Virus record (IMG/VR): IMGVR_UViG_3300007775_000137
Span: 1 to 52,788 of that record
Strand: one strand, 5' to 3'
Length of the DNA stretch: 52,788 nt
Origin: a virus
The translations under genes and the position numbers were made by a program. Below the pieces are notes generated by a model. That model did not search any database. It saw only the letters and a list, made by a program, of their open reading frames with translations, and was not told the DNA's origin. Below are positions 15,042-50,287 of the stretch, in pieces. Each line of letters opens with the position of its first letter. Position 1 is the first letter of the stretch.

Positions 15042-15716
15042 TTATTTTCCCAATATTGGCAGATAGTTGCAATGATTATAAAAACACCCGGTATTTGTGG
15101 CGGTTGGCATAGGTGTATTTGTTGGCTGTAGTGTTGGTTCCATTGTTGCATTACTGGTAGCTGTTGGCTCTGGTTTTATACCAGGATAGATAGTTTTGAA
15201 AATTGTGGCTGGTACATTTGCCGTCCCATTGCCATTAGTGGAAATTGGCCCATGCTTCGCAGCATACCGTCCCTCGCAATCCTCTGGTATTAGATTTTTA
15301 GTACCACCTGCCACAGATAGCGACCATCCAACATCGGGCAATTCCCATCCCGTCAAACCGCCATTCTCAAAACAACCATTAGGAATTACAACGCCATCTA
15401 TTGCAATTCCTTTAATTTTCCAGCCCAACGAATTTTGAGGAAATTCACTGGTAAAACCCACTCGCAAAACATCACAACCAGACAAGTCAACATCTATAGA
15501 ATGTTTATTCCAGCCACCCGGCTGAGACATGCCGTCAAGATGTTCAATAGTGGTTATTTCACTATTACAATCTACCCAGACATCCATATACGAGCCGCGC
15601 ACAGTAATTACCCAGTATGAAATGGTTGAACTTTCAGCACTTGCCGATGAAAACAGCCAGATTGCCAAAAGCAAACCAGCAATAAAGCCAATTGATTTTA
15701 AGATTTTATTTGCCAT
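15042..15716 (-). CDS. secreted protein with Chloroflexota-type C-terminus
   Basis: 224 aa with GAGGAAAA before ATG 15716. Residues 1-27 are a signal peptide (basic start, hydrophobic GFIAGLLLAIWLF, then SASA). The middle is beta-rich (residues 30-170) and resembles carbohydrate-binding or F5/8-type folds. It ends with a Pro-Thr linker (PEPTATSNATMEPTLQPTN) and NYLPILGK, which resembles the YLP-hydrophobic-K tail of many Chloroflexota secreted proteins. It may coat the infected cell or block superinfection. The role is inferred. Confidence 0.6.
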   Translation of the reverse strand: MANKILKSIGFIAGLLLAIWLFSSASAESSTISYWVITVRGSYMDVWVDCNSEITTIEHLDGMSQPGGWNKHSIDVDLSGCDVLRVGFTSEFPQNSLGWKIKGIAIDGVVIPNGCFENGGLTGWELPDVGWSLSVAGGTKNLIPEDCEGRYAAKHGPISTNGNGTANVPATIFKTIYPGIKPEPTATSNATMEPTLQPTNTPMPTATNTGCFYNHCNYLPILGK

Positions 15717-16363
15717 TTTTCCTCATATCGTTTCTTATTTGCCATAAAAAACTCATTCATGTTTTTGAGTTTGCCACTGGTAGCATTTCCCGCATGGTTA
15801 CACCATCCTGCCTTTTTCATCGTATAGCCAGCGGCCAAAACACGTTGCCAATAATCCCGATCTTCAAAATAGCCAAACTTATAACCTTCATCCAGCAAAC
15901 CAACATCAACCACAATACCGGGTTTTGTCATCCATAACGCACCAAACATAGTACCAACTGTTGCATCTTGCACACCCGCTTTATGTTCAGGATCGTGCGC
16001 ATGTAGGTGCGAGGATATTACGCCCGTCTTTTCATCCCACGCGCTTGACATATACTCAAACCAGTTAGGCAAAAATTCTATATCATTGTTGGCAACTACA
16101 ATCCAGTCAGCATCCATTGATATTTTTAATCCCTGATTGACTGCCCTTGCAAAACCATAATTAGACGGATTACGCCGATAATAGCCACTGGTTGAAATTG
16201 CCATCAAATAGCCAGTTCCCATTTGAGAACCGTTATCAATAATTAAAACCCGGTATGGTTGAGATGTATTTTCACGCAATGATTCAACGCATCGCGCTGT
16301 CCACTTAAGCAAAGCATTATTGTTATCAGGCAGCAAATAGCAAGGAATAATTACGTGAATCAT
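15698..16363 (-). CDS. family 2 glycosyltransferase
   Basis: 221 aa. HVIIPCYL opens the GT-A fold, followed by YRVLIIDNGSQ, NYGFARAVNQGL, WIVVANNDIEFLPNW (a D-x-D-like NND motif) and YFEDRDYWQRVLAAGY with the acceptor-site ED. This is the rhamnosyl/dTDP-sugar transferase-like GT2 type. It overlaps the secreted protein gene by 19 bp and the sulfotransferase gene by ATGA. It sits inside the tail operon and may decorate tail proteins or cell-surface glycans. Confidence 0.8.
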   Translation of the reverse strand: MIHVIIPCYLLPDNNNALLKWTARCVESLRENTSQPYRVLIIDNGSQMGTGYLMAISTSGYYRRNPSNYGFARAVNQGLKISMDADWIVVANNDIEFLPNWFEYMSSAWDEKTGVISSHLHAHDPEHKAGVQDATVGTMFGALWMTKPGIVVDVGLLDEGYKFGYFEDRDYWQRVLAAGYTMKKAGWCNHAGNATSGKLKNMNEFFMANKKRYEEKWQIKS

Positions 16364-16863
16364 GATGTTTGCCTTTTGCCAAAACCATGCCGTTTTTCAA
16401 TCGACACCCAAAGCTCATGAGAGTCGAGCGAATGATAATCAATCTCATATGATTCCTTACACAATGCTTTTTGCCATGTATACCATGCCTGATATTTCAC
16501 CAGCGAAATAATACCATTTGAGCGATTGTATTTTTTCAATTCATTTTGCCGCTCACCTTGCCAACCAATCCTTGCTTCACTGGCTACAATCTCATGTACC
16601 GGTCTGCTTACCATAATAATGGTTGCATCCAACTCATGAATGACATGACAAATTGCTGGACATTGCAAAACAAATTTATCTTGAGTTTCAACCATCTTTT
16701 TGGCAGCTTCAAAACTGCTAATATTGATATGTTCCTCAGTGTAAAAATTGTAGCCCAAATCATGAGCTAGAATTTTAGCGCATATGGTTGTACCGCTTCT
16801 TTGCGGCCCTGTTACCAAGATTTTTGAACCCTGTATGGTTGGCATTATATCTAAATAGTTCAT
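16360..16863 (-). CDS. sulfotransferase-like P-loop protein
   Basis: 167 aa. ILVTGPQRSGTTICAKILA carries the RSGTT phosphosulfate loop of sulfotransferases, a P-loop variant. TIIMVSRPVHEIVASE matches the 3'-phosphate-binding RxPxExxxS segment. Shorter than typical sulfotransferases (about 250 aa). It is flanked by two glycosyltransferases, so a sulfated glycan product is plausible. A kinase-like role is the alternative. Confidence 0.6.
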   Translation of the reverse strand: MNYLDIMPTIQGSKILVTGPQRSGTTICAKILAHDLGYNFYTEEHINISSFEAAKKMVETQDKFVLQCPAICHVIHELDATIIMVSRPVHEIVASEARIGWQGERQNELKKYNRSNGIISLVKYQAWYTWQKALCKESYEIDYHSLDSHELWVSIEKRHGFGKRQTS

Positions 16864-18083
16864 GATAATGCGGCTGCTAATTGGCAGCTAACCGCCTCTA
16901 AGCTTTTCACCTGTCGCACTCGCACATGCCCCGCCAATACAGGGTTATTGCTCATATGATAAACAATCTGATTAGCAATATTTTTCATGTACATTTTGCG
17001 ATCTGCATAATTCGTTTCAGTTGTGCCGAGTAAACCAGTGGTGATGTCAATATTTGCGCTAAATTTGCCCCACACCAATTCCTGCCACTGGTGAAACGGA
17101 CGTAAGTCCATATTCAAAACCAAGCCGCATCTAGCCCATGCCGCTTCAATGGCTACAATTGAATCAGTTTCGGATCGGCTAGGATGTACCAGAATATCAC
17201 CATATTCAAACAGTTCACGAATAACCTTATGAGGCACATGGTAAGGTGCATAATCTGACATAAAAATGACAGGCGTTTTAATTCCGGCCATTTGGCGCAA
17301 TTCATCACGGTAAGTCTTTTTATCACCGCCTGTTGAGTGAAAATCTGCCACAACGACAGGCGCATAAAAACCCATCTCGTTAAGTTGCTCAAAAATTTCT
17401 ATAACGATGTGTGGCTGTTTCCCCCGGTCTAATCGGCACGGGTAAACTGCTATCATGTCGGCTTGCCATAATTTATTGTCGGCAATTACTTTTTTTGTGA
17501 GTGGCTCATAATATTCTGTAATGTCCAGCGTATTAGGCACTATCGCTGTTTCATCGACTTCGTAGCCATACAACCCCGCTTTACGTATCTTTTCCTCATT
17601 GTCAAAAACCGCCAAAGTTGAATGAGGAAACTTGCCTAATAATTCTTTCTGATATTTTCCAGCTTGCCTAATGACATCCATTTTAGTGGCAGAATGAACC
17701 AAATGAAGCCATTTTATATCAGGATTTTCAATAGCAAACCGCCGCGCTGCTACGTGCATTTTCCACATTGCTGGCTGGTAAATTAAGTCATTCGTTACGA
17801 TGGCATCAAAACCCGGTATGGTGGTCATGAGTTCGTTGTAAATATGCTCAATTTCCGATTCTGTATCATTGTCAATTTTGACAACATTGTCACATTTGCC
17901 CTGATTTATCTCAATTATTTTAGGATTGCCATATTGACGGAATGAATCATCATAGCCATTTTTGACAACCAATACAGGGTTATAACCGCGCATTTGCAGC
18001 ATAAGCAATTGGTTTTTCACGGCTCCACAAATGGAGTATGCCGGGTCATAATTTAATAAATCTGTCAGTATTGCAATTTTCAT
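16860..18083 (-). CDS. GT4-type glycosyltransferase
   Basis: 407 aa. GT-B fold: MKIAILTDLLNYDPAYSICG at the N-terminus, and AVYPCRLDRGKQPHIVIEIF plus DILVHPSRSETDSIVAIEAA in the C-terminal half. The latter gives the S-x-x-E(T/S)xxxxxxEA nucleotide-sugar site. Retaining transferase, sugar unknown. Coupled by ATGA to the preceding tail gene and to the sulfotransferase. Its presence between structural tail genes suggests late expression. Confidence 0.8.
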   Translation of the reverse strand: MKIAILTDLLNYDPAYSICGAVKNQLLMLQMRGYNPVLVVKNGYDDSFRQYGNPKIIEINQGKCDNVVKIDNDTESEIEHIYNELMTTIPGFDAIVTNDLIYQPAMWKMHVAARRFAIENPDIKWLHLVHSATKMDVIRQAGKYQKELLGKFPHSTLAVFDNEEKIRKAGLYGYEVDETAIVPNTLDITEYYEPLTKKVIADNKLWQADMIAVYPCRLDRGKQPHIVIEIFEQLNEMGFYAPVVVADFHSTGGDKKTYRDELRQMAGIKTPVIFMSDYAPYHVPHKVIRELFEYGDILVHPSRSETDSIVAIEAAWARCGLVLNMDLRPFHQWQELVWGKFSANIDITTGLLGTTETNYADRKMYMKNIANQIVYHMSNNPVLAGHVRVRQVKSLEAVSCQLAAALS

Positions 18084-28045: not shown

Positions 28046-28256
28046 CAGATTTTGGACATAAGACAACATCAAATCCGCGCTCGGATTTGTTTAATGGAAA
28101 TACTTCGTAAATACAATTTGATAATCCGCTACTGCTGTCTATTATCCAAACATTTCTGTCATCAAGATCGAGAGGTATCATATTAATGATTTTCCTCAGT
28201 TCCCCGATGGTTAGATCGCCATCTTTTGCCGTATAAGGAATACTCAATTTATCCAT
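28038..28256 (-). CDS. hypothetical protein
   Basis: 72 aa. GDLTIGELRKIINMIPLDLDDRNVWIIDSSSG is followed by FDVVLCPKSDD. It resembles phage proteins in which a short helix (TVGELRxxL) precedes a strand with D-x-x-V/I. No function known. Overlaps the glycosyltransferase fusion gene upstream and the DUF1360 gene downstream. Confidence 0.65.
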   Translation of the reverse strand: MDKLSIPYTAKDGDLTIGELRKIINMIPLDLDDRNVWIIDSSSGLSNCIYEVFPLNKSERGFDVVLCPKSDD

Positions 28257-31200
28257 TCAACGCCCGATTAATTTCTTTAATGATGGTCTTGCGCGGCTTA
28301 TCCTGATTTTTCTCAGTTGTCAAAACAACCAATAAATCCTCTGGTTCTGGATTCGTTTTCATCCAAATACGAAAATCATCAATGGTATCAAATTCTGGAA
28401 CCATGACATTTAACGCTGCTTCAACATTGCTTGAATCAATGCCCATGCCAGCAGCTTTAACTGGTACATCTGCCCAAATGTCATCCATAACAATATCATT
28501 GACAGGCAATTTTGGCGCATTACTTTTAATCGGTTCAGTTTTTAATGTGGTATTTCGCTCTGGTAAACTAAACTCAACCCATAGCGGTTGACCTTTTCGT
28601 GTACGTTGTTTCAATGATTCAGCATCTTGAGGATGCACATCAAAAAGCAACATGCCATCATTCGTTAGCATTGTTCGATAGGACTTACCACTTGCCCCGC
28701 CTTTTACTGTAAATTTGCCAGACATCGGCCCTTTGTATTCAAGTATCATACCATCTCCATTTCTAGCTACGAGTGCCTCAAAATCAGATTGTGGCAATTC
28801 TGCCAGTGCTTTGTTATACGGTTTGCCTTGTGGGCATTTTTTGCATGCCATTGGTTTGCGCCTCTTGTAATAATCAATATGTTCATTATAAAGTATTTTC
28901 TTTAGCTTGTCATTTTCTGCTTTCACAGCAGCTTTTTTTTCTGGACTTGCTTCCTCAAACGCTGCATATTTGCGCCTTAACCCGGTATTTGGACGATAGG
29001 CTAAAATGGCTTCCTCAACTCGCAAACCACATAAGCCAATTTGGGCATACATCTTAATCTGATAATCCCAATCTTCCCATGCTGGCATTGTGATATTAAA
29101 ACCACCTATTTTTTCATGCGCCCATCTGGGATATAAAGCCGTTACCGGGTGAATAATCCGTCGCAAAATTACATCATCGCTGTTTATGTCACAAGTAAAA
29201 TCATAGGACTTGTAATAGTCTGGCAATTCATCGCCTTTAGGTACTAGCCAGTCGCCATAAACTACACAATTGCCATCCGTCGATTGCCACGCTTCATACA
29301 GGGTAGACAATGCACCCGGCAATAAATAATCATCAGCATCTAAAAAGACAATCAATCCAGACTTGGCAGCTTTTACACCAGCATTACGCGCTTCACCCGC
29401 ACCACGCGCATCAGGATGTTTTTCTTTTGGTGTCACAATTCGGGCATATGATGCACCCGGTATGGTTGTCCACTTTTCGCCAGTATCATTTACTACAATG
29501 GCTTCCCAGTCTTGGAAATCTTGAGCTATCAAACTATCTAAAGCGTCAATAACATATTCTTTATGGTTTGGCCCTACTGGAATTATCACCGACAATACCG
29601 GGTTTTGATGGTGTCTGACATTCCAATATTTACCGTATCTTGCCCACGAACGAGGCGGCAAACCTTGCGCCCCGAATGGTACTATCTGAGCATTGGGAAT
29701 TTCGCCATTATGCCGCTGGCTTATTTTCTCACCATCTTTAGCTTTATCGGCAAAGCGAAATGGCAACCATGCTAGCCAGTTCGGTTCCTTGCCAAACTTA
29801 CGCATCTCATTAGCTGATTTACTGTCACCACGTAGGCGGTAAATTAAAGTTGATGCCTGCGTAACTTTCTTGGCAATATAACCATAAGAGGTAACACGCG
29901 CCCAAAAAATAGCATCCTCATTACGTGAATCTCGCACACGATACCCGCCGCTGTTTTCTAGCACTTCTCTACGCATCATAGCGGCATATGGTAACTGATT
30001 CAAATGCGCCAATTGCCCACGCCAACTATATTGTTCAGGCGGGAAAAAGTCTTTATCTTTATTAGCATTACGCCGCTGGTTCGTGCCGTCATCGTTGATT
30101 AAATCTAAATGACCATAGGCAATATGAATGCCTTGATCTTTATCCAATTCGTTGGATAAAACCTCTAGCGCATTTGGAGCAAGCATATCATCAGCGTCTA
30201 AATAGATTATGTATTTGCCTTTTGCATGGGTGAATCCAAGGTTTCTTGCACCTGATAACCCTGTATTTTGTGGGGTTTTTAGATAGGTAATTTGCTTGTG
30301 AGGATTGTACAATTCGATTATGTCTAAACTGCTATCAGTTGAACAGTCATCGACGATTAAACATTCATAATCGGTAAAAGTTTGATTCACAACTGAATCT
30401 AAGCAACTTTCAAGATATTTTTCTAGGTTGTAATTCGTAACAATAACACTTACTTTTGGCTCTTTTGGCTGACAATGAATATCATAAACCGACTTAAAAA
30501 CATCGGCATATTGTTCAATCTTATCCCGCCATTGCCACCGTTCAATAACATCTTGCCGTGCGTTTTTGCCAAGTTCATCGCGGTTTTTTAGAGCAAGCCG
30601 AATAGCTTTTTCTAGCTGCTCATAATCGCCCTCTGGAACCAGATAACCCGTTACACCTTGCTTAATAATTTCTACCTGTCCACCAAATGCCCATCCAACT
30701 ACAGGCACGCCACAAGCCATAGCCTCTAATGTGCCAATGCCGAAAGTTTCCCGCGTCGTTGCCAAATAAACACCGGCTTTAGCAACAATGCTTTTCATGC
30801 GCTCATATGGTACAGCATCTAAAATCTTTACATTTTTCCGCTCACCCCCATACGTGGTAACAAATCGCACATCAGGCATAAGACGCGCCAATTCATTTAA
30901 TGGAGCTGGATCGGATATAGGGTCAACCCGTGCCTTATTCCACAATACCCAGTCGGCTGGATTGTCATCAGGTGTAAATTCATCTATGTCTACACCGTGA
31001 TAGATGACTTTTGGGTCAATTAACATGCCCCGTGTAATGGCATTGCGTACCCAGTATGAGGGTGCAGTCGTTGCTTTTGCCCGTTTCATTGATTCGATAA
31101 CCAACTGATTAACGCGGTGCATTGTTGCACCCCAATCATAATCTGCCCAATATAAACCATGACATGAGCTTACAATTGGCTTGTCAAATTTAGTAACCGG

Positions 31201-31371
31201 CATTGCCCCATGTGCATTAATAATATCGGCTTCTTCTGGTGTATTGACAATCTCAATACCAAATTCAGGCAAGTATTTTTGCATGGCTTCTATTACCCGC
31301 CGAATGCCGCCGTCTGGTTTGTCGCCTTCTTGCCCTGTATAGTCAGGAGAAATGTAAAGTTTTATTGTCAT
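28249..31371 (-). CDS. triple glycosyltransferase fusion (GT4-GT2-GT2) with C-terminal extension
   Basis: 1040 aa from ATG 31371 (ATGA overlap). Residues ~1-300: GT4 domain with GVDIDEFTPDDNP, VYLATTRETFGIGTLEAMAC and WAFGGQVEII. Residues ~305-560: GT2 with SVIVTNYNLEKYLESCLDSV, LIVDDCSTD and IIYLDADDM. Residues ~595-840: second GT2 with SVIIPVGPNHKEY, VVNDTGE, VFLDADDYLLPGA and MPAWEDWDY. The last ~200 residues begin with a MACKKCPQGK segment and are not transferase. The DxD motifs are intact. It could assemble several sugar units alone. The extension may dock the enzyme on a virion or partner. Confidence 0.85.
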   Translation of the reverse strand: MTIKLYISPDYTGQEGDKPDGGIRRVIEAMQKYLPEFGIEIVNTPEEADIINAHGAMPVTKFDKPIVSSCHGLYWADYDWGATMHRVNQLVIESMKRAKATTAPSYWVRNAITRGMLIDPKVIYHGVDIDEFTPDDNPADWVLWNKARVDPISDPAPLNELARLMPDVRFVTTYGGERKNVKILDAVPYERMKSIVAKAGVYLATTRETFGIGTLEAMACGVPVVGWAFGGQVEIIKQGVTGYLVPEGDYEQLEKAIRLALKNRDELGKNARQDVIERWQWRDKIEQYADVFKSVYDIHCQPKEPKVSVIVTNYNLEKYLESCLDSVVNQTFTDYECLIVDDCSTDSSLDIIELYNPHKQITYLKTPQNTGLSGARNLGFTHAKGKYIIYLDADDMLAPNALEVLSNELDKDQGIHIAYGHLDLINDDGTNQRRNANKDKDFFPPEQYSWRGQLAHLNQLPYAAMMRREVLENSGGYRVRDSRNEDAIFWARVTSYGYIAKKVTQASTLIYRLRGDSKSANEMRKFGKEPNWLAWLPFRFADKAKDGEKISQRHNGEIPNAQIVPFGAQGLPPRSWARYGKYWNVRHHQNPVLSVIIPVGPNHKEYVIDALDSLIAQDFQDWEAIVVNDTGEKWTTIPGASYARIVTPKEKHPDARGAGEARNAGVKAAKSGLIVFLDADDYLLPGALSTLYEAWQSTDGNCVVYGDWLVPKGDELPDYYKSYDFTCDINSDDVILRRIIHPVTALYPRWAHEKIGGFNITMPAWEDWDYQIKMYAQIGLCGLRVEEAILAYRPNTGLRRKYAAFEEASPEKKAAVKAENDKLKKILYNEHIDYYKRRKPMACKKCPQGKPYNKALAELPQSDFEALVARNGDGMILEYKGPMSGKFTVKGGASGKSYRTMLTNDGMLLFDVHPQDAESLKQRTRKGQPLWVEFSLPERNTTLKTEPIKSNAPKLPVNDIVMDDIWADVPVKAAGMGIDSSNVEAALNVMVPEFDTIDDFRIWMKTNPEPEDLLVVLTTEKNQDKPRKTIIKEINRALNG

Positions 31372-32411
31372 GTTATGCGCCAAACCGTCCTACTTGCATC
31401 CCTACCGTGTACGGGAATTGTTACCAATTTCTCAACCTTGCCATATTGCTTAAGCATATTGTAAACGTCATCATCTGTTTTGTGAACACCTGGGCCATCT
31501 CCGACAAGTTGAGTCTCAAAGAATAATTGATCTGATTTTTCAATCAACCGCATAAGGGTGTATTCTGCCCGATTATAACTTTCATTCCTGGCAATATGGG
31601 CAAATACTGACATAAAAAATATAGTATCAGTTTTATACTTTATCGGACTAGTAGAAACAACATTACCATGACAAATAGGCCAAACGATATTACTTGATTC
31701 CACCTCTCCACTTAACCATACTTCTTTTAAAGCATCGTTGCCATATTTAGGAATACTAACATCTCGATCCATTCCCCAAAACCTGCCCATATCCCATGAT
31801 GCTTTTTCAGTTAAAGCAAAAAGTAAATAGTCACCCTCAGCACATCCAAAATCTATTAAAGAGTTACCCTGTATGCAGGGTCTTATTGCCTGCCACTTAC
31901 GAATATGACGCGATGTGTCAGGCGATAATTCCAAAGCAGCTTGCCACAAATTAAAGGCATCACCCTCCGGTCTTTTATCTGGCCCCGGTTCATTATCAAA
32001 TTTGCTTTGGTGAAAGTCAATCAGCATTGGCTTATTGTTTTTGACAATGATGTTTTTAGTTGAGATGTCACCATGACGGATGCCGTGTTTTTTGAGAGTG
32101 TAAAGAAGTAAAGCGCAATTGCGACGGAAAATTGTTTCATCTGTAACTGGTTCGGACTTACCTAAATCTTCAACTATTAAATGAGATAAACTAGAGGGAG
32201 CATCACTATAATCAAATTTGATAAATTTCGGAGTAAATCCAGTACCATCTAAAGCCTTTAAAAATCTAGCTTCATTTTGAAGAAACATATTTTCAATACC
32301 GGTATAAGCATGTTTGATTATTGTATCAGCATCATGTTGTATTTTTATCCCCTTCAATCCACCAGCCACAAAAGCAGCATCGCCGTCTGTTACTAAATCA
32401 ATTTTGCTCAT
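31368..32411 (-). CDS. kinase-like domain fused to SAM methyltransferase
   Basis: 347 aa. Residues ~1-140 have a protein-kinase/LPS-kinase fold: VEDLGK hinge, HGDISTKNIIV catalytic loop (113-123) and MLIDFHQSK (DFG-like, 129-137). Residues ~180-347 form a class I methyltransferase: SLIDFGCAEGDYL (184-196) and a later FMSVFAHIAR. Such kinase-MTase chains modify glycan ends (phosphorylate then methylate) in O-antigen synthesis (WbdD of E. coli is the known case, in reversed order). It lies directly before the glycosyltransferase fusion, fitting a chain-terminating role. Confidence 0.75.
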   Translation of the reverse strand: MSKIDLVTDGDAAFVAGGLKGIKIQHDADTIIKHAYTGIENMFLQNEARFLKALDGTGFTPKFIKFDYSDAPSSLSHLIVEDLGKSEPVTDETIFRRNCALLLYTLKKHGIRHGDISTKNIIVKNNKPMLIDFHQSKFDNEPGPDKRPEGDAFNLWQAALELSPDTSRHIRKWQAIRPCIQGNSLIDFGCAEGDYLLFALTEKASWDMGRFWGMDRDVSIPKYGNDALKEVWLSGEVESSNIVWPICHGNVVSTSPIKYKTDTIFFMSVFAHIARNESYNRAEYTLMRLIEKSDQLFFETQLVGDGPGVHKTDDDVYNMLKQYGKVEKLVTIPVHGRDASRTVWRIT

Positions 32412-32899: not shown

Positions 32900-33284
32900 T
32901 TTCCCTTCTCCAAGAAACAATAACTTCGTCAATATATGGGAAGATAACACCAAGCAAACCGCCTTTTTCTATTTTACTTTCATCAAAATAAATGAATCTA
33001 GTTGCCCGTACAATATCACCACATCGGCAAATTACTTGAAAATCAAGATGCTCTTGTTTTATTTCAACTTGCCAAACATTATTTGTTTTTTCAGCAAGAT
33101 AGCCAATAATGGCATAATTAAGTACATCAATGGCCTCAACAACACTTGTCAGTTCTTCTTTTGATATTTTTGGCACTTTGGGAATATGTCTAGGTATTGA
33201 ACCGTTAACGGGAACATGCCCCCAGTATCCATGTACATTATCATAATAAATCTCACCTTTACATGACTCGCAATAAGTAGCCAT
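32883..33284 (-). CDS. hypothetical zinc-binding protein
   Basis: 133 aa from ATG 33284 (TGATG overlap). N-terminal CESCKGEIYYDNVHGYWGH gives CxxC...H-x5-H, a possible zinc site; C-R-CG appears later. The rest is alpha/beta with no known family. Glycan-module neighbourhood. Confidence 0.6.
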   Translation of the reverse strand: MATYCESCKGEIYYDNVHGYWGHVPVNGSIPRHIPKVPKISKEELTSVVEAIDVLNYAIIGYLAEKTNNVWQVEIKQEHLDFQVICRCGDIVRATRFIYFDESKIEKGGLLGVIFPYIDEVIVSWRREIETDS

Positions 33285-33961
33285 CAATCCACCTCGTAAC
33301 TTTGCACCGCGCCAATATGATTAAATACTCCCCAACCAGAAATACTAGCAGGTCGCCATATTTTAATCTCATTTTGTTGTCTGAAACGATAATCAAAATC
33401 AATCTCAACATCACCGGGAGATGGCTGGATATTTTCATTGTATAAGCCAATTGCCTGATTCAGCCGCTTATGCCGCAAATGAGGATTGCCACTAAAAGCG
33501 TATTGTGGCTTATGATCCATTTCTAAATAGTGCCGCCCGTCATGGCCTTTTACATGGCAAATCATGCCAAGTGTCAAGGTTCCAAATCTCACGATGCCCA
33601 CTTGCTCATTTTCCTGTAACAATTTGACGTAAGGTGTAATGTCGAACGGTTCTGGAAGTAACCAATCATCTTCCATAACTAGCACATAATCAGACCATTT
33701 ATAACATTCAACTAGACCACGATTCCAATTTGCGCCGGGTGTCATTTTTTCGCAATGTATACCGATAGTACGCTCGTTTTCAAGACTGCTAAATAATTGG
33801 TCAAGTCGTTCACTGTTGCCAAAACCATCAGCAATATACCACGCCAGTTTACCATCATAATGCAGGTTTTTAATTAAACCCTGTATTGTTTTTGTGGCAT
33901 ATTCTAGCCTGTCATTATCTCGCAGATAAACAAGTAAAAGAATTGTAATGTTAGGATTCAT
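33284..33961 (-). CDS. GT2-like glycosyltransferase
   Basis: 225 aa from ATG 33961 (ATGA overlap). NITILLLVYLRDNDRLEYAT at the start, WYIADGFGNS, MTPGANWNRGLVECY and YVLVMEDDWLLPEPFD with the EDD metal motif support a GT-A transferase. Shorter than most. It is coupled to the FkbM-like methyltransferase upstream, so the two may act on one glycan. Confidence 0.7.
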   Translation of the reverse strand: MNPNITILLLVYLRDNDRLEYATKTIQGLIKNLHYDGKLAWYIADGFGNSERLDQLFSSLENERTIGIHCEKMTPGANWNRGLVECYKWSDYVLVMEDDWLLPEPFDITPYVKLLQENEQVGIVRFGTLTLGMICHVKGHDGRHYLEMDHKPQYAFSGNPHLRHKRLNQAIGLYNENIQPSPGDVEIDFDYRFRQQNEIKIWRPASISGWGVFNHIGAVQSYEVD

Positions 33962-34566
33962 TTCACCACCCAACATGCCAACCATTTACCATAATCCCAA
34001 AACTTATCATAATGTTGCTTAATTAGTTTCCTCAACAATAAATCCTGTAAAGCATCACCATGAAATTGAATCATCAAATAACGCGGCATAATGTTATTTT
34101 CCAGCATATAAGGCACAAGCTCATATTCGTATCCTTCGATATTTATCAGACAAACATCTATTTGCTTAACACCTGATTCGCGCACCACGTCAACAATATT
34201 ACGGATATAACCCGTACCTTTCTGCCGTGTATCTCGCAAGAATGAACAACCGTCAGTACCAAATTCACCCATAGGCAATTCTTCATCCCGAACGCCTAAG
34301 CCGCAATTTCTAACAACTACATTGTCAAAATCACGCAAAACACGCCTTGTAACTTCACATGCCCACAATTGCGGCTCAAAACAATACAACTTTGGGTTAT
34401 ATCGTTCAGCCATTTGTAATGCCCAGCGACCCTTGAAACTGCCAATTTCCCATACAACAGAATTAGAATTTAGCTCAGGCCAATCAATCGCTTTTCTATC
34501 CCATTCGTGTTCAGGATTAGCTGCCGCTTCTCTTGTCTCTTTTGCCCATTGTTCTAGTTGGCTCAT
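33958..34566 (-). CDS. FkbM-like methyltransferase
   Basis: 202 aa. VVWEIGSFKGRWALQMAERY binds AdoMet; YCFEPQ, VRNCGLG and CLINIEGYEYELVPYM match the FkbM order (EPxP, xGxG, IDxEGxE). FkbM enzymes O-methylate sugars. ATG 34566 lacks a strong SD (AAAGAAAGTGAATA upstream). Part of the glycan module. Confidence 0.75.
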   Translation of the reverse strand: MSQLEQWAKETREAAANPEHEWDRKAIDWPELNSNSVVWEIGSFKGRWALQMAERYNPKLYCFEPQLWACEVTRRVLRDFDNVVVRNCGLGVRDEELPMGEFGTDGCSFLRDTRQKGTGYIRNIVDVVRESGVKQIDVCLINIEGYEYELVPYMLENNIMPRYLMIQFHGDALQDLLLRKLIKQHYDKFWDYGKWLACWVVK

Positions 34567-41777: not shown

Positions 41778-43259
41778 TTACGCCGGTAGATTCCAGTCTG
41801 AGAAATAGCTTGGAGCTGCTCTCTCTGTAGTTATGCCACCATTTACAAAATAGTAATCATCCGGAACCGCGTCACGGAAATGCTGGAGAGGTTCGTAGCA
41901 AACATTCTGCAAACGTCCTGCGAGTTGAGGCGTTCTCAAAATCACACGAGGACGAATCTGAGCATTCCATTGTACACAGGACTGCGTAGGCGGCTCTTTA
42001 TGCCATAAGAAACGGCCAGCGTCAGACCAAAAATCTTGGCTTAGGCGACCGCCAGAAATGGCAGATTGAAGCGCATCATTGCCGTAGTTGAACACTTCCC
42101 AGAAGGTCACAGGAGTGCCACCCCGTACGGTCATCGGAATAAGATAGATGTCACTTGCAAATTGACCATCTACCAAATTCGCGCCAGGAGTGCCGCTAGA
42201 TTCTTCAACGATAAATGAATCCTGAATAACCGGAATGCGCTGCCCGTCAATTAGCAAGAATGAACCGTTACGCATTTCATCACTAAATCGACGCTGTGCA
42301 TCACCGTCAACAAATACCCGCGCATTGTCGCCAATGACCTCGCAACGGTCGGTATTGTATTGGCAAGGCCAAACGTCGGTTAATTCAGTAAACAAGTTTG
42401 GGTTCATTGTGAAAACCCAGCTAACCTGCCCGAAATTCATTGTCCTTGCATTATAACGGACATAACGATATATCGCATGAAGTGTACGAACGATGCCGCT
42501 GCTTAACGTGGTATCATCCACACAACCATAATTGAAGTTCTTAATGTCGGAGTCAAGCGCAGGACAATCAGTGCCAGTCAATGCGTCAACTTTGCTAGTA
42601 CCAACCAGCAAATCTAGGCCAGGGAATTCGTTACCCGTTCCCGTTCCGGCATAAACCTGTTCGCCTAATTCGCGCTGGAAACTTACACCAACTTCAATCA
42701 GTCGTGACATAAAGTCCATTGCCAAAACATTAGCCTGTCCACTTGGCAAACCGCCAAACAAACCAGTAGCAAAATCATTTACCAATGGGCTATTTACGAT
42801 ACGCAAATCCATAAACTCGCCACGATCAATTACTTCACCTAGCCGATTCAAATCAATGGCGCGTGTCTCAAAACCGTAACGGCCAAATTGTGCCGTCTGA
42901 ATACAGTTTTTGATTGCACCAGCTACCGGAAAAGCTCCACATGGATCGGTTGTTGGGTCTGGCTGTGAACCATTAGACGCTTGAAACCCTGTAATGTAGC
43001 CATAAAGAGGATTAGTCTTTACAGACAAACTAACAGGCAACATTGAAGCAATCCCATCGCCATTGATATGGCTAGAGAAAATGTCACGCTCTAAACCAGA
43101 TACGCCAAACAAACCGCCAGGGCCATGCAAAAATGGCACACCGGGAGTAGATGGAGCGGCCTTATACCCCTGCGGAAAGCTGCCCCATTTTTGTTGATTA
43201 CCGCCTGCCATACTAGCCAGGGCAGTAGCCAACTGATTTACATCAATCATATTGCTCAT
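41778..43259 (-). CDS. major capsid protein, HK97 fold
   Basis: 493 aa, ATG 43259 behind GGAGG. Long loop-rich N-terminus, then the spine-helix and beta-hinge region NDFATGLFGGLPSGQANVLA, RLIEVGVSFQRELGEQVYAG and the P-domain FTMNPNLFTELTDVWPCQYN. AGTGTGNEFPGLD is the segment common in HK97-like capsids of the unusual large type. Size, order after protease/scaffold, and its own strong terminator all fit. Several Cys suggest stabilisation. Confidence 0.8.
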   Translation of the reverse strand: MSNMIDVNQLATALASMAGGNQQKWGSFPQGYKAAPSTPGVPFLHGPGGLFGVSGLERDIFSSHINGDGIASMLPVSLSVKTNPLYGYITGFQASNGSQPDPTTDPCGAFPVAGAIKNCIQTAQFGRYGFETRAIDLNRLGEVIDRGEFMDLRIVNSPLVNDFATGLFGGLPSGQANVLAMDFMSRLIEVGVSFQRELGEQVYAGTGTGNEFPGLDLLVGTSKVDALTGTDCPALDSDIKNFNYGCVDDTTLSSGIVRTLHAIYRYVRYNARTMNFGQVSWVFTMNPNLFTELTDVWPCQYNTDRCEVIGDNARVFVDGDAQRRFSDEMRNGSFLLIDGQRIPVIQDSFIVEESSGTPGANLVDGQFASDIYLIPMTVRGGTPVTFWEVFNYGNDALQSAISGGRLSQDFWSDAGRFLWHKEPPTQSCVQWNAQIRPRVILRTPQLAGRLQNVCYEPLQHFRDAVPDDYYFVNGGITTERAAPSYFSDWNLPA

Positions 43260-43261
43260 AT

Positions 43262-44926
43262 TTATCCTCCACCCAAATTAAATAGGTTACTTGCCCAGCT
43301 TTCATCTGGTTTAGAATTCTTAAATGTTTCTTTTTCTTTTTCAGTTACAACGGTTGCTTTTTCAGCACTTGCCCGAAAACCACCCATCCAGTCAATACCG
43401 GGTACTTTTGGTGCAAGTTCATTAGCCATCTTTTGATCGTCAGAAAGTTCTAAGGCTTCCAACCGCTTAACCACATTTTCAATTGCCGTTGCATTGGCAG
43501 AATTAGACTCATTAAGCGTTTTAATTGCCTCATGCAGTCCAGCGGGATTAAGCTGCTTTGTTACCAAATCGGCTACGCTTTTTGCTAAATCTGCGGTATT
43601 AAGAACAGCTTCAACTTCTGATTCAGTAGCCTGAATTTCCTCTACCAAAACAGCATCGGCGGGAATTTCCTTACTGCCAGCAATCGAACCATCAGCTTTA
43701 CCACCACCAATTGCGCCATCTTCTTTTTGCTTACTTTGAATTCCTGCACTTTCGAGAACTTCTGCGCGTTGCTTGGTTCCATCTTCCAGCGCATTGGCAA
43801 AATCCTCGCCATGCAATTGTGCCAGCATTTGACGCTGGTCATTTGTGAGTGCCATATTTCCTAGCTCCTTAACATTAAATTCAGTCCACGGATTAGCCGC
43901 TGCCCTGCGAGGTAAAACCGTAGCCTCAAAAGTTCTGTACTTATTAATCAAATTTTGTTGCTTGCCCAAAACGTAAAAACCATGCGACATCCCCAAATCA
44001 TCGCTTACGTTATCAAATACCTTTGCCTCTTGTTCTGTCAGTTTCCCCCCAAGAATTAAGAAGCCATTTAGATATGCCCAGAAGTCTGCTTTGCTTTCCC
44101 TCTGCGTCCCTGGTGTATGATAAGTCCATAGTTGCGGCGCGGCTTTAGGATGTGCGTCAAGCCATGCGATATAATCTTTGTGCGCTTCATCGGTAAGAAT
44201 CTCCCCTTCCCGATCCATAAACTTATTTGATACCCAACCTAGCCAACGAAATGAGCCGTCAACAGCTTTTAATACTTTGAACCCGGTATTGTGAGGTGAA
44301 TCAAAAACAGACTCATTGCGGGAAACGTCTGCCGTTTCTTTTGAGTCTTGCAATTTCTGCAAATATACCGGGTCTAATTTCCCGTTAATCGTTGGAATGC
44401 TGATGGTACGCTCCCCACGTTCAAAATCAGCATCAAGGCGCATACGCATCTCTTCTGTTAAATTTCGCAATGCCGCCGAGCGGTCTGTCGGGTCAATGGC
44501 TGGATTCTGAGTAATGTTACGCGCCAGTCGCATGAAGTTGTCAACAATTCGGCGCAGCTTGCCATGTTGTTCTTGCGCCTGTTCAATAGTGTCTAATTCA
44601 GAAAAAGACATTGCGCCCATGACAGGATCGTAATAGTCCATGCTTTCACCTATGCCATGTTCCATTTTTGAAGCGTCAACATACGCCATTCCAGCATTTG
44701 TTGTTGTCACAGATTCAACCTTTGCTGTTTGTTTTCCAACTTGAACAAAATTAGCAGAATCTTCTGTTTGCTTTTCGTTTTCAGTATCCATAGCTTTTCC
44801 AATTGAAGAACGGCATATAGCGATAGCTGCGCTTTTGTCTGTTTCACCACCTGCCATAACGCGCTCTACGCATCTATCTATTTTGGCCTCTGCGGCTGAA
44901 CCTGCCGGTATTCCTGAATATGGCAT
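43262..44926 (-). CDS. prohead protease-scaffold protein
   Basis: 554 aa. Residues 1-50 (CVERVMAGGETDKSAAIAIC) match a segment often at the start of phage protease/portal proteins. The protease core is FRWLGWVSNKFMDREGEIL, LWTYHTPGTQRESKADFW and VSDDLGMSHGFYVL, giving the His and Ser of U35 prohead proteases. The C-terminal ~200 residues are helical and acidic (TESEVEAVLNTADLAKSVAD) as in a fused scaffold. ATG 44926 lies seven bases after a terminator-like T-run, with no free SD. Confidence 0.8.
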   Translation of the reverse strand: MPYSGIPAGSAAEAKIDRCVERVMAGGETDKSAAIAICRSSIGKAMDTENEKQTEDSANFVQVGKQTAKVESVTTTNAGMAYVDASKMEHGIGESMDYYDPVMGAMSFSELDTIEQAQEQHGKLRRIVDNFMRLARNITQNPAIDPTDRSAALRNLTEEMRMRLDADFERGERTISIPTINGKLDPVYLQKLQDSKETADVSRNESVFDSPHNTGFKVLKAVDGSFRWLGWVSNKFMDREGEILTDEAHKDYIAWLDAHPKAAPQLWTYHTPGTQRESKADFWAYLNGFLILGGKLTEQEAKVFDNVSDDLGMSHGFYVLGKQQNLINKYRTFEATVLPRRAAANPWTEFNVKELGNMALTNDQRQMLAQLHGEDFANALEDGTKQRAEVLESAGIQSKQKEDGAIGGGKADGSIAGSKEIPADAVLVEEIQATESEVEAVLNTADLAKSVADLVTKQLNPAGLHEAIKTLNESNSANATAIENVVKRLEALELSDDQKMANELAPKVPGIDWMGGFRASAEKATVVTEKEKETFKNSKPDESWASNLFNLGGG

Positions 44927-45637: not shown

Positions 45638-46123
45638 TTATGAGGATGCCTTTTTGATTGCTTTGCGAACTTCTTTTACTAATTCAGGTTGTAATTGCTC
45701 TGCTATTACAATGTCAAATTCACGCGCCGTTGTACCGGGATGATGTACTATTTTTGCACTTACCATTCTGCCCGAACTTCCTCCACGCCTCGATCCAATT
45801 TTACGCGGTGTCGTTTTAGAAGTAAAGCCAGTTTGAAAACGTAAAGCAGGAGCGCGTTTAGGCGTAATAACATGCGGCTTAGTACCTCTCACAACATAGC
45901 CATAAATCTCATCCATCGTCGAAACGACAGCTACCAATTTACTTGACGTTGCCCTGTCAACCTTAAAGTCTGGCTTTCGTTTCCAAGTGGCTACTGTTTT
46001 GCCAAATTCACGCTCTGCTTTTTTGATAATATCGTTTAGGGTTTTGGCAGACTCCCTATCAAATTTATCTAGGTCGAATATTTTACCTTTTGGTGTAATT
46101 GAGCGTAGGATTATTTGTGCCAT
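45638..46123 (-). CDS. HK97 gp10-like head-tail completion protein
   Basis: 161 aa. Helical start with FDLDKFDRESAKTLNDIIKK, then DEIYGYVVRGTKPHVITPKR (the Y-V-x-x-GT-PH-I-P segment typical of phage minor tail/gp10-like proteins) and PGTTAREFDIVIAEQLQPEL. These proteins join head to tail. It is coupled to the portal gene by TAATG. Confidence 0.65.
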   Translation of the reverse strand: MAQIILRSITPKGKIFDLDKFDRESAKTLNDIIKKAEREFGKTVATWKRKPDFKVDRATSSKLVAVVSTMDEIYGYVVRGTKPHVITPKRAPALRFQTGFTSKTTPRKIGSRRGGSSGRMVSAKIVHHPGTTAREFDIVIAEQLQPELVKEVRKAIKKASS

Positions 46124-48621
46124 TAAACACCTGTGAGCGGTTCATCAGTTTCTACCCAACTACATTGGCACAGCCAGCCGCCGCAATCTAATTCGTGACT
46201 TTTTGGATATGTTCCTAAAGCTCGCCATTGACTACGGGTGAGAACACGCTGGCTATTATCTAGGCAAGAGTTACAATGATCGGTTGGCCCTAAAGCCCAA
46301 CCAATATGATCTTCATCATCTCCACCACGTAAAAACCCAAGCGCGTAAACAGCCAGTAAACCAACTCCCCAAAGCGTTACACGATTATCAATCAGTTCAT
46401 CAGTAGGCGTATCCTCATCACCACCAAAAGCAACAGCCGATAAATATAAACCCGGTATAGCGTCAAGGTTCACTTCTGTTTGGTCTGATATGATTTGCCG
46501 ATCCTCATCTGTCAATTGCGCTATGGTTTTGCCGCTTGCCAAAAGATACGTATTAATAATTTCAGCAGCAACCAATGATTCAGCTTCAATTCTGAACTCA
46601 TCTTCTGTAATTGTACCATTGGCAGCTTCCGCCATTAAGTCAGCTAATTCTGATTCATAATCCGCTGTATCAATTTGTTTGGTTGTCTTTTTTTTTATGG
46701 AACCCTGTATGGTGGTGTGGCTCTCCCCCTTGTCAGAATAAACCAACTCGCCAGATACGCGCATACCATTAAGAGGATTGTCAAGTTTTAGGTATTTCTT
46801 ACCCATACCGGGTTTAAGATATGCAATAGTCATATGTGGATTGTAGGTTGGATGTGTATCCTCGTTTGGCAACTGACTAACAATTGCATTCATTTGCCGT
46901 AATTCTGCCCCGTCAACATTCAACTTCAATACATCAAAATCATCATTCTGGAATAATGCCAAATTGCCAATTTTTATAGTAAGTGGCAATAGTTTTTGAA
47001 TCTGTGAAGTAATTTGCTTTGGTGTCACACTATCCAAAAATCCATACTTAACTGTTACATGGGAATCTGTCACAATTGGTGAACTTGACCATGATTCTGG
47101 TGGCTGAAACAAATCATCACTATCTAAATTAGCAGCAATTAACGAAGCGGCATGTCTAATATGATCAGGCATCATTAACATTAAGCATCCATATTCTTCA
47201 TTTTCCTTCGCTCTAATTTCCGCTGGTATCTGTTCCGGTTGCATTTCTGCCGTATCGGTTGACGGCGTATTGTTTGCCTCATTTAGTTCTGATTCAGTTG
47301 CGGCTTGCTCATCATCCGTTGCCACAATATCGGGTGTCACATCTGTAGTATTCAAAAGTGCCATGTACTCAGGCTTTAAGATGCCTTGGTCTGCCATCAT
47401 TTGATGGATAACTGGCAACGACAAAATGCCTTGACCCTTATCATAATAAGTTGAAAATGTTTTTGCCTGTTTATCTTCTAATTCAGCAGCTTGAATATCT
47501 GACTCAATGTCTTTTTCATCAAAAGCAAATGTCACCGATTGCGGCATGATGCCATTAAAATTTAGTTTATGTTCCCATAGCTTGACATCAGTTTCGCGCC
47601 CTTTGCCGCGTGACTTACGGTCTAGCACGTCACTTTGTTGACCGCTGCCCAAGCTGCCAGATGATAATGGCGCAAAATCCTGATAATCAGCACCAGCGGC
47701 CATTGCAATTTGGGCAATGTACCAGCGCAATGTAGTATCCTCGTCGAATCCATCAGGAACACTACGCAAGTCGATTGAAGCCGTGCTAACAGTCGAATTA
47801 GGGTCAAGACTACCAATAATCGTTGGCAACATGAAACGGCTATAGCCTTGATTGTCGGCACTCATTTGGTCATCGGCTAATTTGTCGTTGATTAGTTTAG
47901 TCTGAACACCTGAAACAAAATGTATCTCGCCAGGATTACGCCCTGCTATTTTTTCCCGTTTATAGATTCCAAAGTCTTTTATAATTTGGGCTGCTCTTAA
48001 GACGCGACTTAAGAAGCAAACCTGCAAACTATTCATTTCCTCAATTGGCGACGGCATATCCTCAAAAGTCAATACCTGATACCATGCTAATTTATGCTCT
48101 ATGCCATCACGATCCCAGTAAATGACAGGGGTTTCGGGGATGCCAGTTCTTACGCATCTACCTGCGTCCAAATGCGCTAGATTCAATACCGGGCTATTTG
48201 GCGCGTCTTCTTGCCGAATGACTTCTACAAATGCGCCATTGTCTTGTGTTAGTTGGTCAGTAAGTACTTTAATTCTTAGGTCAAGCCAGCCTTTGCCCAA
48301 GTTGGATGACTGTAGCATACGCTGCAAAATGCCAACCGTGCGAGGAGGCCCGTCAAGCGACCATGACATATTGGCACGCGCTGCCACAATCGTTTGAATG
48401 GCACTTGCTATAATCGGTTCAGTAGGCCAAAACCCCCGCAGCTTCCTATCACGTAATCTGACATTGCGTCCCCAGGCTGGCAAGTCATCAGCAAATGACG
48501 AAACATTGATAACAAAAACATCACTACCCGGTATTGTTTGTTGGTCTGGTATCTTTTGAACCGTACGATCCAATATCCGATCATCTATGAGTGCTTTTTC
48601 TTGCGTACCATTTTTGGTCAT
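46123..48621 (-). CDS. portal protein fused to a 2H phosphoesterase and a minor-head-like C-terminus
   Basis: 832 aa from ATG 48621 (a TTG at 48642 is inside a hairpin). Residues ~20-430 are a phage portal: FWPTEPIIASAIQTIVAARA, DQLTQDNGAFVEVIRQED, WYQVLTFEDMPSPIEEMNSL. Residues ~470-640 form a 2H phosphoesterase (2'-5' RNA ligase-like) with SHVTVKYG (His 521) and PHMTIAYL (His 596), both HxT motifs intact. The C-terminal ~170 residues end with GPTDHCNSCLDNSQRV and CGGWLCQCSW, resembling SPP1 gp7/MuF-type minor head proteins. Such a triple fusion is unusual. Confidence 0.8.
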   Translation of the reverse strand: MTKNGTQEKALIDDRILDRTVQKIPDQQTIPGSDVFVINVSSFADDLPAWGRNVRLRDRKLRGFWPTEPIIASAIQTIVAARANMSWSLDGPPRTVGILQRMLQSSNLGKGWLDLRIKVLTDQLTQDNGAFVEVIRQEDAPNSPVLNLAHLDAGRCVRTGIPETPVIYWDRDGIEHKLAWYQVLTFEDMPSPIEEMNSLQVCFLSRVLRAAQIIKDFGIYKREKIAGRNPGEIHFVSGVQTKLINDKLADDQMSADNQGYSRFMLPTIIGSLDPNSTVSTASIDLRSVPDGFDEDTTLRWYIAQIAMAAGADYQDFAPLSSGSLGSGQQSDVLDRKSRGKGRETDVKLWEHKLNFNGIMPQSVTFAFDEKDIESDIQAAELEDKQAKTFSTYYDKGQGILSLPVIHQMMADQGILKPEYMALLNTTDVTPDIVATDDEQAATESELNEANNTPSTDTAEMQPEQIPAEIRAKENEEYGCLMLMMPDHIRHAASLIAANLDSDDLFQPPESWSSSPIVTDSHVTVKYGFLDSVTPKQITSQIQKLLPLTIKIGNLALFQNDDFDVLKLNVDGAELRQMNAIVSQLPNEDTHPTYNPHMTIAYLKPGMGKKYLKLDNPLNGMRVSGELVYSDKGESHTTIQGSIKKKTTKQIDTADYESELADLMAEAANGTITEDEFRIEAESLVAAEIINTYLLASGKTIAQLTDEDRQIISDQTEVNLDAIPGLYLSAVAFGGDEDTPTDELIDNRVTLWGVGLLAVYALGFLRGGDDEDHIGWALGPTDHCNSCLDNSQRVLTRSQWRALGTYPKSHELDCGGWLCQCSWVETDEPLTGV

Positions 48622-48641: not shown

Positions 48642-48675
48642 AATAGCCTAACCCCGCCTGACGGAGTAGGCTATT
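48642..48675 (-). other. leader hairpin of the portal operon, UCAGG loop
   Basis: AATAGCCTA / TAGGCTATT outer stem with an inner CTCCG-TCAGG-CGGGG hairpin, about 20 bases before the portal start. There is no long T-run. It shares the UCAGG loop with 26262-26297 and 44940-44967. An AT-rich promoter-like stretch lies upstream (48680-48705). Confidence 0.6.
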
Positions 48676-49083: not shown

Positions 49084-50262
49084 TCACAGTGAGCGTTCAC
49101 TACCGCCCAACTCCACAGGCAATTCCCCGCGCTTCACAGGTTCAGCTAAAGCCGCTAAATTCATAGCAGCATTAAGGTCTCTATCCATTTCTGCCCCGCA
49201 ATCAGGGCATTTATAAATCCGCATGGCTAATGTCAATTCAGAATTGATACAGCCACAGGAGCTGCATGTTTTGGAAGATGCAAACCATCTATCCGCTTTC
49301 AAAACCTCAATCCCATTCCATGCTGCTTTATATTCAATTTGTCGGTGCAATTCAGACATTGAAGCATCACTAACGGCTTTAGCCAGATTGTGATTTTTAA
49401 CCATGCCCTTAACGTTCAAATCTTCAATGACTACCACCGAAGGCCGTTTATGTTCGGTTACATACTTGCTTACATTGTGCAGGTTATGCGCCCGTTTGTT
49501 AGCTATCTTTTGGTGAAGCTTGGCAATCTTAGCTTTTGTTTTGGTCCGGTTAGAACTGCCTTTTTCACGTCGTGATAATTCGCGCTGTAAACGGGCTAAC
49601 TTTTTCTCGTATGTTTTCAGCACCTTGTCATTAGGAAACTCTTTCCCATCTGAGCAAACCGCCAATGATTTAATGCCAACGTCAACGCCTAGCGGTTCAC
49701 CCATTGCCGGTACGGGTTCGTCTGTTTCTTGTTCGACTTGAAAGCTAATAAACCATTCCCCGGCACTTTCCGAAAGTGTCACAAAGTTTATTTTTACATC
49801 CTCTGGAATATAATTAGATTCAGCTAAATTTACCCAACCAATACGGGGTAACTTAACACGCCCATTTTCAACACGAATAGAACCACGTAAAACAAATGAT
49901 TGCTTGTCTTTGTATCTGCTTTTGAATTTCGGAAATCCTGTTTCTTTGCCGCCTTTACCCTGTTTAATGCGACGGAAAAAGTTTTGATAAGCAATGTCCA
50001 CATGGTCAAACTCTTCTTGCATTATGCAATATGGGTATTCACGAATCCATGGACAAATCTCATCTTTGGTAGCATTAAAACGCCTCTTTTGCTCAAACTT
50101 GTTTGGTTTACCGCCAGCTTCATAAGTGGCGATCCTATCGGCCAACGCCCAATTAAAAACATACCGAGCAGCTCCACAACAGCCGCCAAAATAACGCCGC
50201 TGCTTTGCGGTTGGTCTAAGTTTTGTCTTGTAGGCTTTTAAAATCGTGATATGATTTATCAT
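49084..50262 (-). CDS. tnpB: TnpB/Cas12-like RNA-guided nuclease
   Basis: 392 aa from ATG 50262 (AAAAGGA upstream; TTG at 50280 overlaps that site). It has the HTH/helical N-terminus KLRPTAKQRRYFGGCCGAAR and FPKFKSRYKDKQSFVLRGS, then RuvC-I PLGVDVGIKSLAV, a Lys/Arg-rich bridge, RuvC-II VVVIEDLNVKGM, the zinc finger CSSCG...CPDCG, and RuvC-III EMDRDLNAAMNLA. The D-E-D triad is intact, so it should cut DNA. No TnpA is adjacent. Downstream are a structured RNA and a CRISPR array in the same direction. That pairing recalls minimal type V-U/Cas12 systems, which arose from TnpB. Confidence 0.9.
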   Translation of the reverse strand: MINHITILKAYKTKLRPTAKQRRYFGGCCGAARYVFNWALADRIATYEAGGKPNKFEQKRRFNATKDEICPWIREYPYCIMQEEFDHVDIAYQNFFRRIKQGKGGKETGFPKFKSRYKDKQSFVLRGSIRVENGRVKLPRIGWVNLAESNYIPEDVKINFVTLSESAGEWFISFQVEQETDEPVPAMGEPLGVDVGIKSLAVCSDGKEFPNDKVLKTYEKKLARLQRELSRREKGSSNRTKTKAKIAKLHQKIANKRAHNLHNVSKYVTEHKRPSVVVIEDLNVKGMVKNHNLAKAVSDASMSELHRQIEYKAAWNGIEVLKADRWFASSKTCSSCGCINSELTLAMRIYKCPDCGAEMDRDLNAAMNLAALAEPVKRGELPVELGGSERSL

Positions 50263-50287
50263 GCTTCGATTCCTTTTCAATCGGAGG

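Follow-up and report, generated by a model that had tools for sequence, protein, structure and literature searches.

A portal protein fused to a predicted 2H phosphoesterase domain in a phage known from environmental DNA, and the varying C-terminal cargo of its portal family

The window, the entire virus record of 52,788 bases, carries a minus-strand gene (46123..48621; 832 aa plus stop) in which a portal, a 2H phosphoesterase domain and a C-terminal region are read as one protein, and over which homologues were aligned. The start codon is an ATG at 48621, the last sense codon occupies 46126-46128 and the stop 46123-46125; the reading frame stays open 5' of the ATG as far as a TTG at 48642. 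The portal core (residues ~45-420; 47362..48489, minus strand) is supported by the portals that the full-length model matched in Foldseek and VIA and by an alignment of 53 portals (A5). It is followed on the same strand by the 2H domain (residues 474-640; 46702..47202), which contains the motifs H521-V-T523 (47053..47061, minus strand) and H596-M-T598 (46828..46836, minus strand), and by the C-terminal region (residues 641-832; 46126..46701, minus strand). The original prediction of a portal fused to a 2H domain with intact HxT motifs, placed at residues ~470-640, was borne out by the profiles, models and relatives described below.

The gene lies in a head module whose order, portal, small head gene, protease-like gene and capsid-like gene, is the same in the related locus L091. 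The small head gene 3' of the portal (45638..46123, minus strand; 161 aa) is 36% identical to the L091 ORF 10430-10948 and may have a connector-like role. The 554-aa product of 43262..44926 (minus strand) resembles a prohead protease. All 6 sequences of alignment A8 share H270 and S314, and we take the product to be a protease on the basis of its motif; Pfam gave no match. The 493-aa product of 41778..43259 (minus strand), 85% identical over 322 aa to its L091 counterpart, is probably the major capsid protein, judged by its position. The placement of the portal between terminase and capsid genes holds, the terminase being seen upstream in L091 only. No terminase resembling that of L091 was found in the window record, which is therefore probably incomplete; exact terminal repeats were absent from the window at the lengths tested, 20 to 200 bases. 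Directly upstream of the portal, where L091 has terminase genes, the window has a TnpB-like gene (OrfB_IS605 with a Cas12f-type zinc ribbon, 49084-50280).

The profile evidence for the portal consisted of a weak PHROG 146 match (E 0.0067), and no Pfam portal model was matched in the fusion protein. The full-length model reached a pLDDT of 53.3 overall; it was good in residues ~40-210 and poor over the 2H domain (about 23-36 in residues ~441-640), so that it does not give the placement of the 2H domain relative to the portal. In the Foldseek search with this model all 50 listed rows were phage or gene transfer agent (GTA) portal, neck, connector or virion entries. The best VIA match was the GTA portal 6toa with a Z of 16.7, at a high rmsd of 6.6 over 268 residues. 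Fifty-two distinct relatives were aligned with the portal part. According to these model comparisons, a portal fold is present in the fusion protein.

The 2H domain was recognised by Pfam PF13563 (2'-5' RNA ligase superfamily; residues 521-603, E 5.7e-8, 33.4 bits against a cut-off of 27) and by PHROG 755 (RNA ligase; residues 518-604, E 8.2e-9). The Pfam model of Acb1, PF23474, stayed below its cut-off (15.3 bits vs 27, E 0.017), and LigT_PEase (PF02834) was absent among the Pfam matches of the fusion protein at E<=1. Both HxT(S) motifs of the 2H superfamily are present. Across the 44 aligned 2H domains of A4, made of 42 rows hand-chosen from 80 loci (the best 80 of 509), the window and L091, the residues H521, T523, F557, Y593, P595, H596, T598 and Y601 were found in 44 of 44 rows. 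The invariance of the second motif is partly built in, because that motif belonged to the pattern by which most rows were retrieved; the first motif lay outside the pattern. L091 itself was retrieved with portal peptides and no 2H pattern. Because the domain E-values, a confidently predicted fold and the conservation in L091 coincide, a chance match is excluded: the fusion is real, the portal-2H reading of the sequence and models is correct, and its kind is ordinary.

The model of residues 465-645, built from the 44-row alignment, had a mean pLDDT of 91.3 and a pTM of 0.85. The highest Foldseek matches in the PDB were the phage phosphodiesterase entries 9q2y/9q2g (E 1.4e-5), followed by the poxvirus cGAMP PDE, Usb1, LigT-like proteins, CPDase and FBB1 Acb1 chains. 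The VIA Z values were 14.4 for drCPDase, 13.1 for Usb1, 12.9 for LigT, 12.8 for 9q2g and 11.9 for FBB1 Acb1. The duplicated 2H fold is present in the model (Z at most 14.4, with 158 residues superposed at an rmsd of 3.5); comparison with Acb1 and LigT, the check proposed originally, thus returned 2H enzymes as the PDB matches, and the predicted 2H fold is secure. The structures of Acb1, LigT, Usb1 and CPDase match about equally, therefore the substrate is left undiscriminated, and an assignment of the substrate from structure was dropped since neither Foldseek nor VIA separated the four.

A strict Acb1-like anti-CBASS enzyme, cleaving cyclic di- or trinucleotides and injected from the virion, is a rather doubtful reading of these matches. 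The lowest Foldseek E-values belong to the Acb1-named phage phosphodiesterases 9q2y/9q2g, Acb1 chains come first when the PDB is searched with a profile (7t26, E 2e-6), and PF23474 is matched at E<=0.001 by 17 of 36 fused relatives, scanned from the best 80 of 526 loci. The window's own domain, however, falls below the cut-off of that model, the DALI-like Z-scores give Acb1 no advantage over CPDase, Usb1 and LigT, and injection would depend on a putative cleavage. The original prediction is thus partly supported: the 2H domain in the portal looks intact, and an Acb1-like choice of substrate is one candidate among several. Acb1 binds with the aromatic base-stacking residues Y12, W74, F107 and W147 and a C-terminal lid (PMC9117128, also the source for the chemistry of Acb1); by hand mapping of residues on the alignment, F557 falls in the W74-like column and H590 in the F107-like column. 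The anti-Pycsar option offered in the original prediction received no specific support, because Apyc1, the enzyme known to counter Pycsar, adopts the MBL fold instead of the 2H fold (PMC9117128).

The equally good matches of Usb1, LigT and CPDase speak also for RNase or RNA-end processing, in which the domain would trim or open RNA ends in the host, as a Usb1-like RNase or by hydrolysis of 2',3'-cyclic phosphates, and so disable host RNA or repair RNA damaged by defence RNases. An RNase role was proposed earlier for phage 2H fusions (PMC5512222), and phage 2H enzymes are treated as RNA-repair partners in PMC7824862. Against it, neither an ATP-grasp RNA ligase (PF09414) nor a tRNA was found in the window record, although missing RNA-repair genes count for little because the record is incomplete; besides, in the passage of Iyer et al. 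2017 on this kind of 2H domain it is said never to have been seen with RNA ligases (PMC5512222). We regard RNA processing as possible, but less likely than not.

The C-terminal region contains helices in residues 653-720 and then five cysteines, C783xxC786 and C813x4C818xC820, which are kept in L091. Thus one CxxC (C783, C786) accompanied by C813-x4-C818-x-C820 was found where CxxC pairs had been claimed. The region had also been called minor-head-like, which applies by position only: no Pfam or PHROG profile matched it. MuF (PF04233) was unmatched in it at E<=1, and hhalign against the MuF regions of relatives gave a probability of 0.7% and an E of 0.08 with a profile of two sequences only. 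A MuF identity was not supported by these comparisons. A scan of viral contigs with this region as the query yielded zero relatives.

The relatives of the portal were collected from a portal-only scan (14 loci), an alignment scan (54 loci) and three genome contigs; once duplicates among the 70 portal ORF records were removed, 52 distinct ones remained, which with the window gave the 53 rows of the alignment and the tree. The portal of L091 is 79% identical to that of the window, and its portal-2H-tail fusion is entire with both motifs (67% identity overall). The portal of L092 is 68% identical and lacks exactly the 2H domain: its linker joins straight to the segment which follows the 2H domain in the window and L091, after which the contig ends. 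The window and L091 were grouped with a support of 100/99, and the two together with L092 with 100/100. Within the portal family the window-type 2H is restricted to the window and L091. L126, L121, L145 and L148 form a separate clade of the portal family (support 100/100). The portal of L126 (4929-6986) ends in a 2H that is LigT-like and unlike that of the window; Pfam LigT was listed for it. The L126 domain represents an independent acquisition; most simply, the 2H domain would have been gained twice in this family. With the L126 domain as the query no phage record was matched.

Among the 53 portal-family proteins Pfam matched MuF in 10, intein in 4, 2H in 3, LAGLIDADG in 2, ADP-ribosyltransferase (ADPrib_exo_Tox) in 2 and LigT in 1. 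In the tree 13 rows carry the MuF label, some of them judged by eye, and Pfam backs 10 of the 53. Thus some members carry ADP-ribosyltransferases, which phages are known to use as effectors, and others have no cargo. Because the cargo differs within one portal family, the C-terminus of the portal is a swap site. The pN/pS values between the window and L091 were 0.174/0.801 for the portal, 0.26/0.745 for the 2H domain and 0.378/0.72 for the tail, which show purifying selection only roughly since the synonymous sites are saturated. Intein-like insertions were seen in the portals of L102 (6477-8993) and L148 (4977-7535), at or near the conserved TQDNGAFVE, and in the MuF part of the portal-MuF fusion of L119 (4911-8024), at a cysteine cluster; L107 and L110 have an insertion in the MuF part like that of L119, as judged by eye.

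These relatives bear on a structural or assembly role, in which the 2H fold would serve as a nucleic-acid-binding or spacer domain of the portal and its chemistry would be irrelevant. Such a role is consistent with the location of the domain in a virion protein and with its recurring position right after the portal core. It is nevertheless improbable: the window retains both HxT motifs, as does L091, a locus found independently of 2H patterns, the portal of the sister L092 exists without the domain, and other relatives carry a different 2H or an ADP-ribosyltransferase. Since the portal of L092 does without precisely this domain, a portal of this type can dispense with it; the swapping with ADP-ribosyltransferases and the clean absence in L092 argue for cargo rather than a structural part.

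Outside the close relatives, the whole fusion protein and the capsid-like protein gave zero matches as scan queries, and the portal part matched none of the named phages, also when E was relaxed to 10. Related portals without a 2H domain are encoded on three contigs of MAGs, whose titles name Methanothrix, Anaerolineae and Nitrosotalea. Of 400 sampled genomes from the phylum of the Anaerolineae MAG, two had a match, namely that MAG and the genome of L162. The latter, a Chloroflexota genome, encodes at 595-2913 a 772-aa fusion of protease-like, 2H and MuF-like parts.

The 2H domain was found also on other portals. In the first 2H scan it lay in a frame of at least 400 aa at 17 of 80 loci (the best 80 of 509), for example in the portal-2H-MuF of L059 and the ART-2H-MuF of L081. 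The second scan, for fused types, gave 76 distinct proteins from the best 80 of 526 loci; 63 of them had at least 400 aa and 36 of these 63 were scanned with Pfam, 10 of the 36 singly, chosen by the position of the 2H. Among the 36 proteins from those best 80 loci, of which one may match more than one model, 7 matched Portal_Mu, 5 Phage_portal, 4 Phage_portal_3, 2 Phage_portal_2 and 8 MuF, with a single match each to the prohead proteases S77 and S78. A portal match stood ahead of the 2H in 7 of the 10 chosen proteins (L164, L165, L180, L182, L186, L200 and L207), being weak in L164 and L165 and sub-threshold in L164; the other three, L212, L240 and L241, matched no portal model. L182 and L200 from IMG/VR share the domain order of the window, with the 2H directly after the portal. 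They differ from it in that their portals belong to the Pfam Phage_portal family (E 4.8e-36 and 4e-49, respectively) and some MuF match is present, so that both read as portal-2H-MuF, the MuF matches (1.8e-4 and 8.4e-6) being below Pfam's own cut-off. It seems from these domain matches that the 2H domain was acquired repeatedly by different portals at the same position. One predicted protein of L165 (3648-6995) combines a portal and a 2H with DUF5661 and the core of a type IB topoisomerase.

Among named phages, the closest 2H sequences include those of the Maribacter phages Molly and Colly and of Microbacterium Ilzatvirus phages, at about 30-33% identity. In contrast to the window, these are separate small genes amid hypothetical or DNA-metabolism genes, with no portal fusion. 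Gp321 of Tunturiibacter phage Tunturi_5 is similar to the window protein in that its 2H is one of several domains of a large protein encoded next to head-tail genes, but no portal was noticed in it, and with 1362 aa it is annotated as a NUDIX hydrolase. Large 2H proteins are present in Gordonia phages, too. Acb1 of phage FBB1 and the Burkholderia phage BCSR5 phosphodiesterase (9q2g/9q2y) share with the window the 2H fold, the HxT/HxT tetrad and the phage origin; they are small standalone proteins, whereas the window domain is fused and sub-threshold for the Acb1 profile.

Fusions of this type have been described: Iyer et al. 2017 (PMC5512222) reported 2H-MuF and 2H-portal fusions and predicted them to be injected anti-signalling enzymes or RNases, and a survey of 2022 (PMC9503650) presents the same fusions with the injection and anti-signalling idea. 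The polyvalent-type fusions of both surveys resemble the window in that a 2H is carried on a portal or MuF in a head context, with packaging predicted; an effector-type domain on a portal in the head module was likewise found here. Unlike the published 2H-MuF fusions, the window protein has a C-terminus that was not recognised as MuF. The fusion type and the anti-signalling idea are thus already published, and the window adds one member. In their passages on 2H fusions the two surveys neither align the window's portal family nor compare relatives with and without the domain nor test single residues; the comparative evidence, consisting of a with/without pair and the portal-family counts, comes from the present analysis.

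On the basis of the domain matches and models, the most likely function is that of a virion-associated, swappable phosphodiesterase directed against host nucleotide signals or RNA. In its specific form, the proposal is that an active 2H phosphodiesterase sits at the portal C-terminus as exchangeable cargo and is followed by a structural tail; we hold it to be evenly balanced. About twelve copies of the 2H domain, as expected from the usual portal ring size of ~12, would face the capsid interior. The presumably metal-independent enzyme would cleave either a small nucleotide by which host immunity signals (a cyclic oligonucleotide or related) or an RNA linkage, 2',3'-cyclic or 2'-5'. Portals stay at the capsid vertex and are not normally ejected, which is an obstacle to the delivery at the moment of infection that was suggested originally: to reach the cell, the 2H part would first have to be severed from the portal. 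In the infected cell the domain might thus act once a protease has freed it and it has been ejected together with the DNA, or else during head assembly. The prohead-protease-like gene lies in the fusion's own head module; no cleavage site between the portal and the 2H was identified. A link between CBASS and a prohead protease is described in PMC12409349. Anti-signalling delivery is a reasonable idea.

It is also conceivable, if unlikely, that the portal-tethered domain erases the signal without injection, in the producing cell at the assembling prohead. If true, this would explain why the 2H was repeatedly joined to portals instead of being encoded only as a standalone protein. The 2017 prediction of injected counter-defence enzymes or RNases rests, in the passages on these fusions, on domain architecture (PMC5512222); with/without pairs (the window and L091 vs L092) and repeated acquisitions make it testable. 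The question raised is whether a virion-borne 2H protects against nucleotide-signalling defences, and whether on entry or during assembly.

Further observations were made among the tail genes of the window. A predicted protein of the tail region (13029-15041) has a very long threonine run which originates from a simple repeat. Glycosyltransferase-like genes were noticed by eye at 15698-18083, 28249-31383 and 33284-33985.
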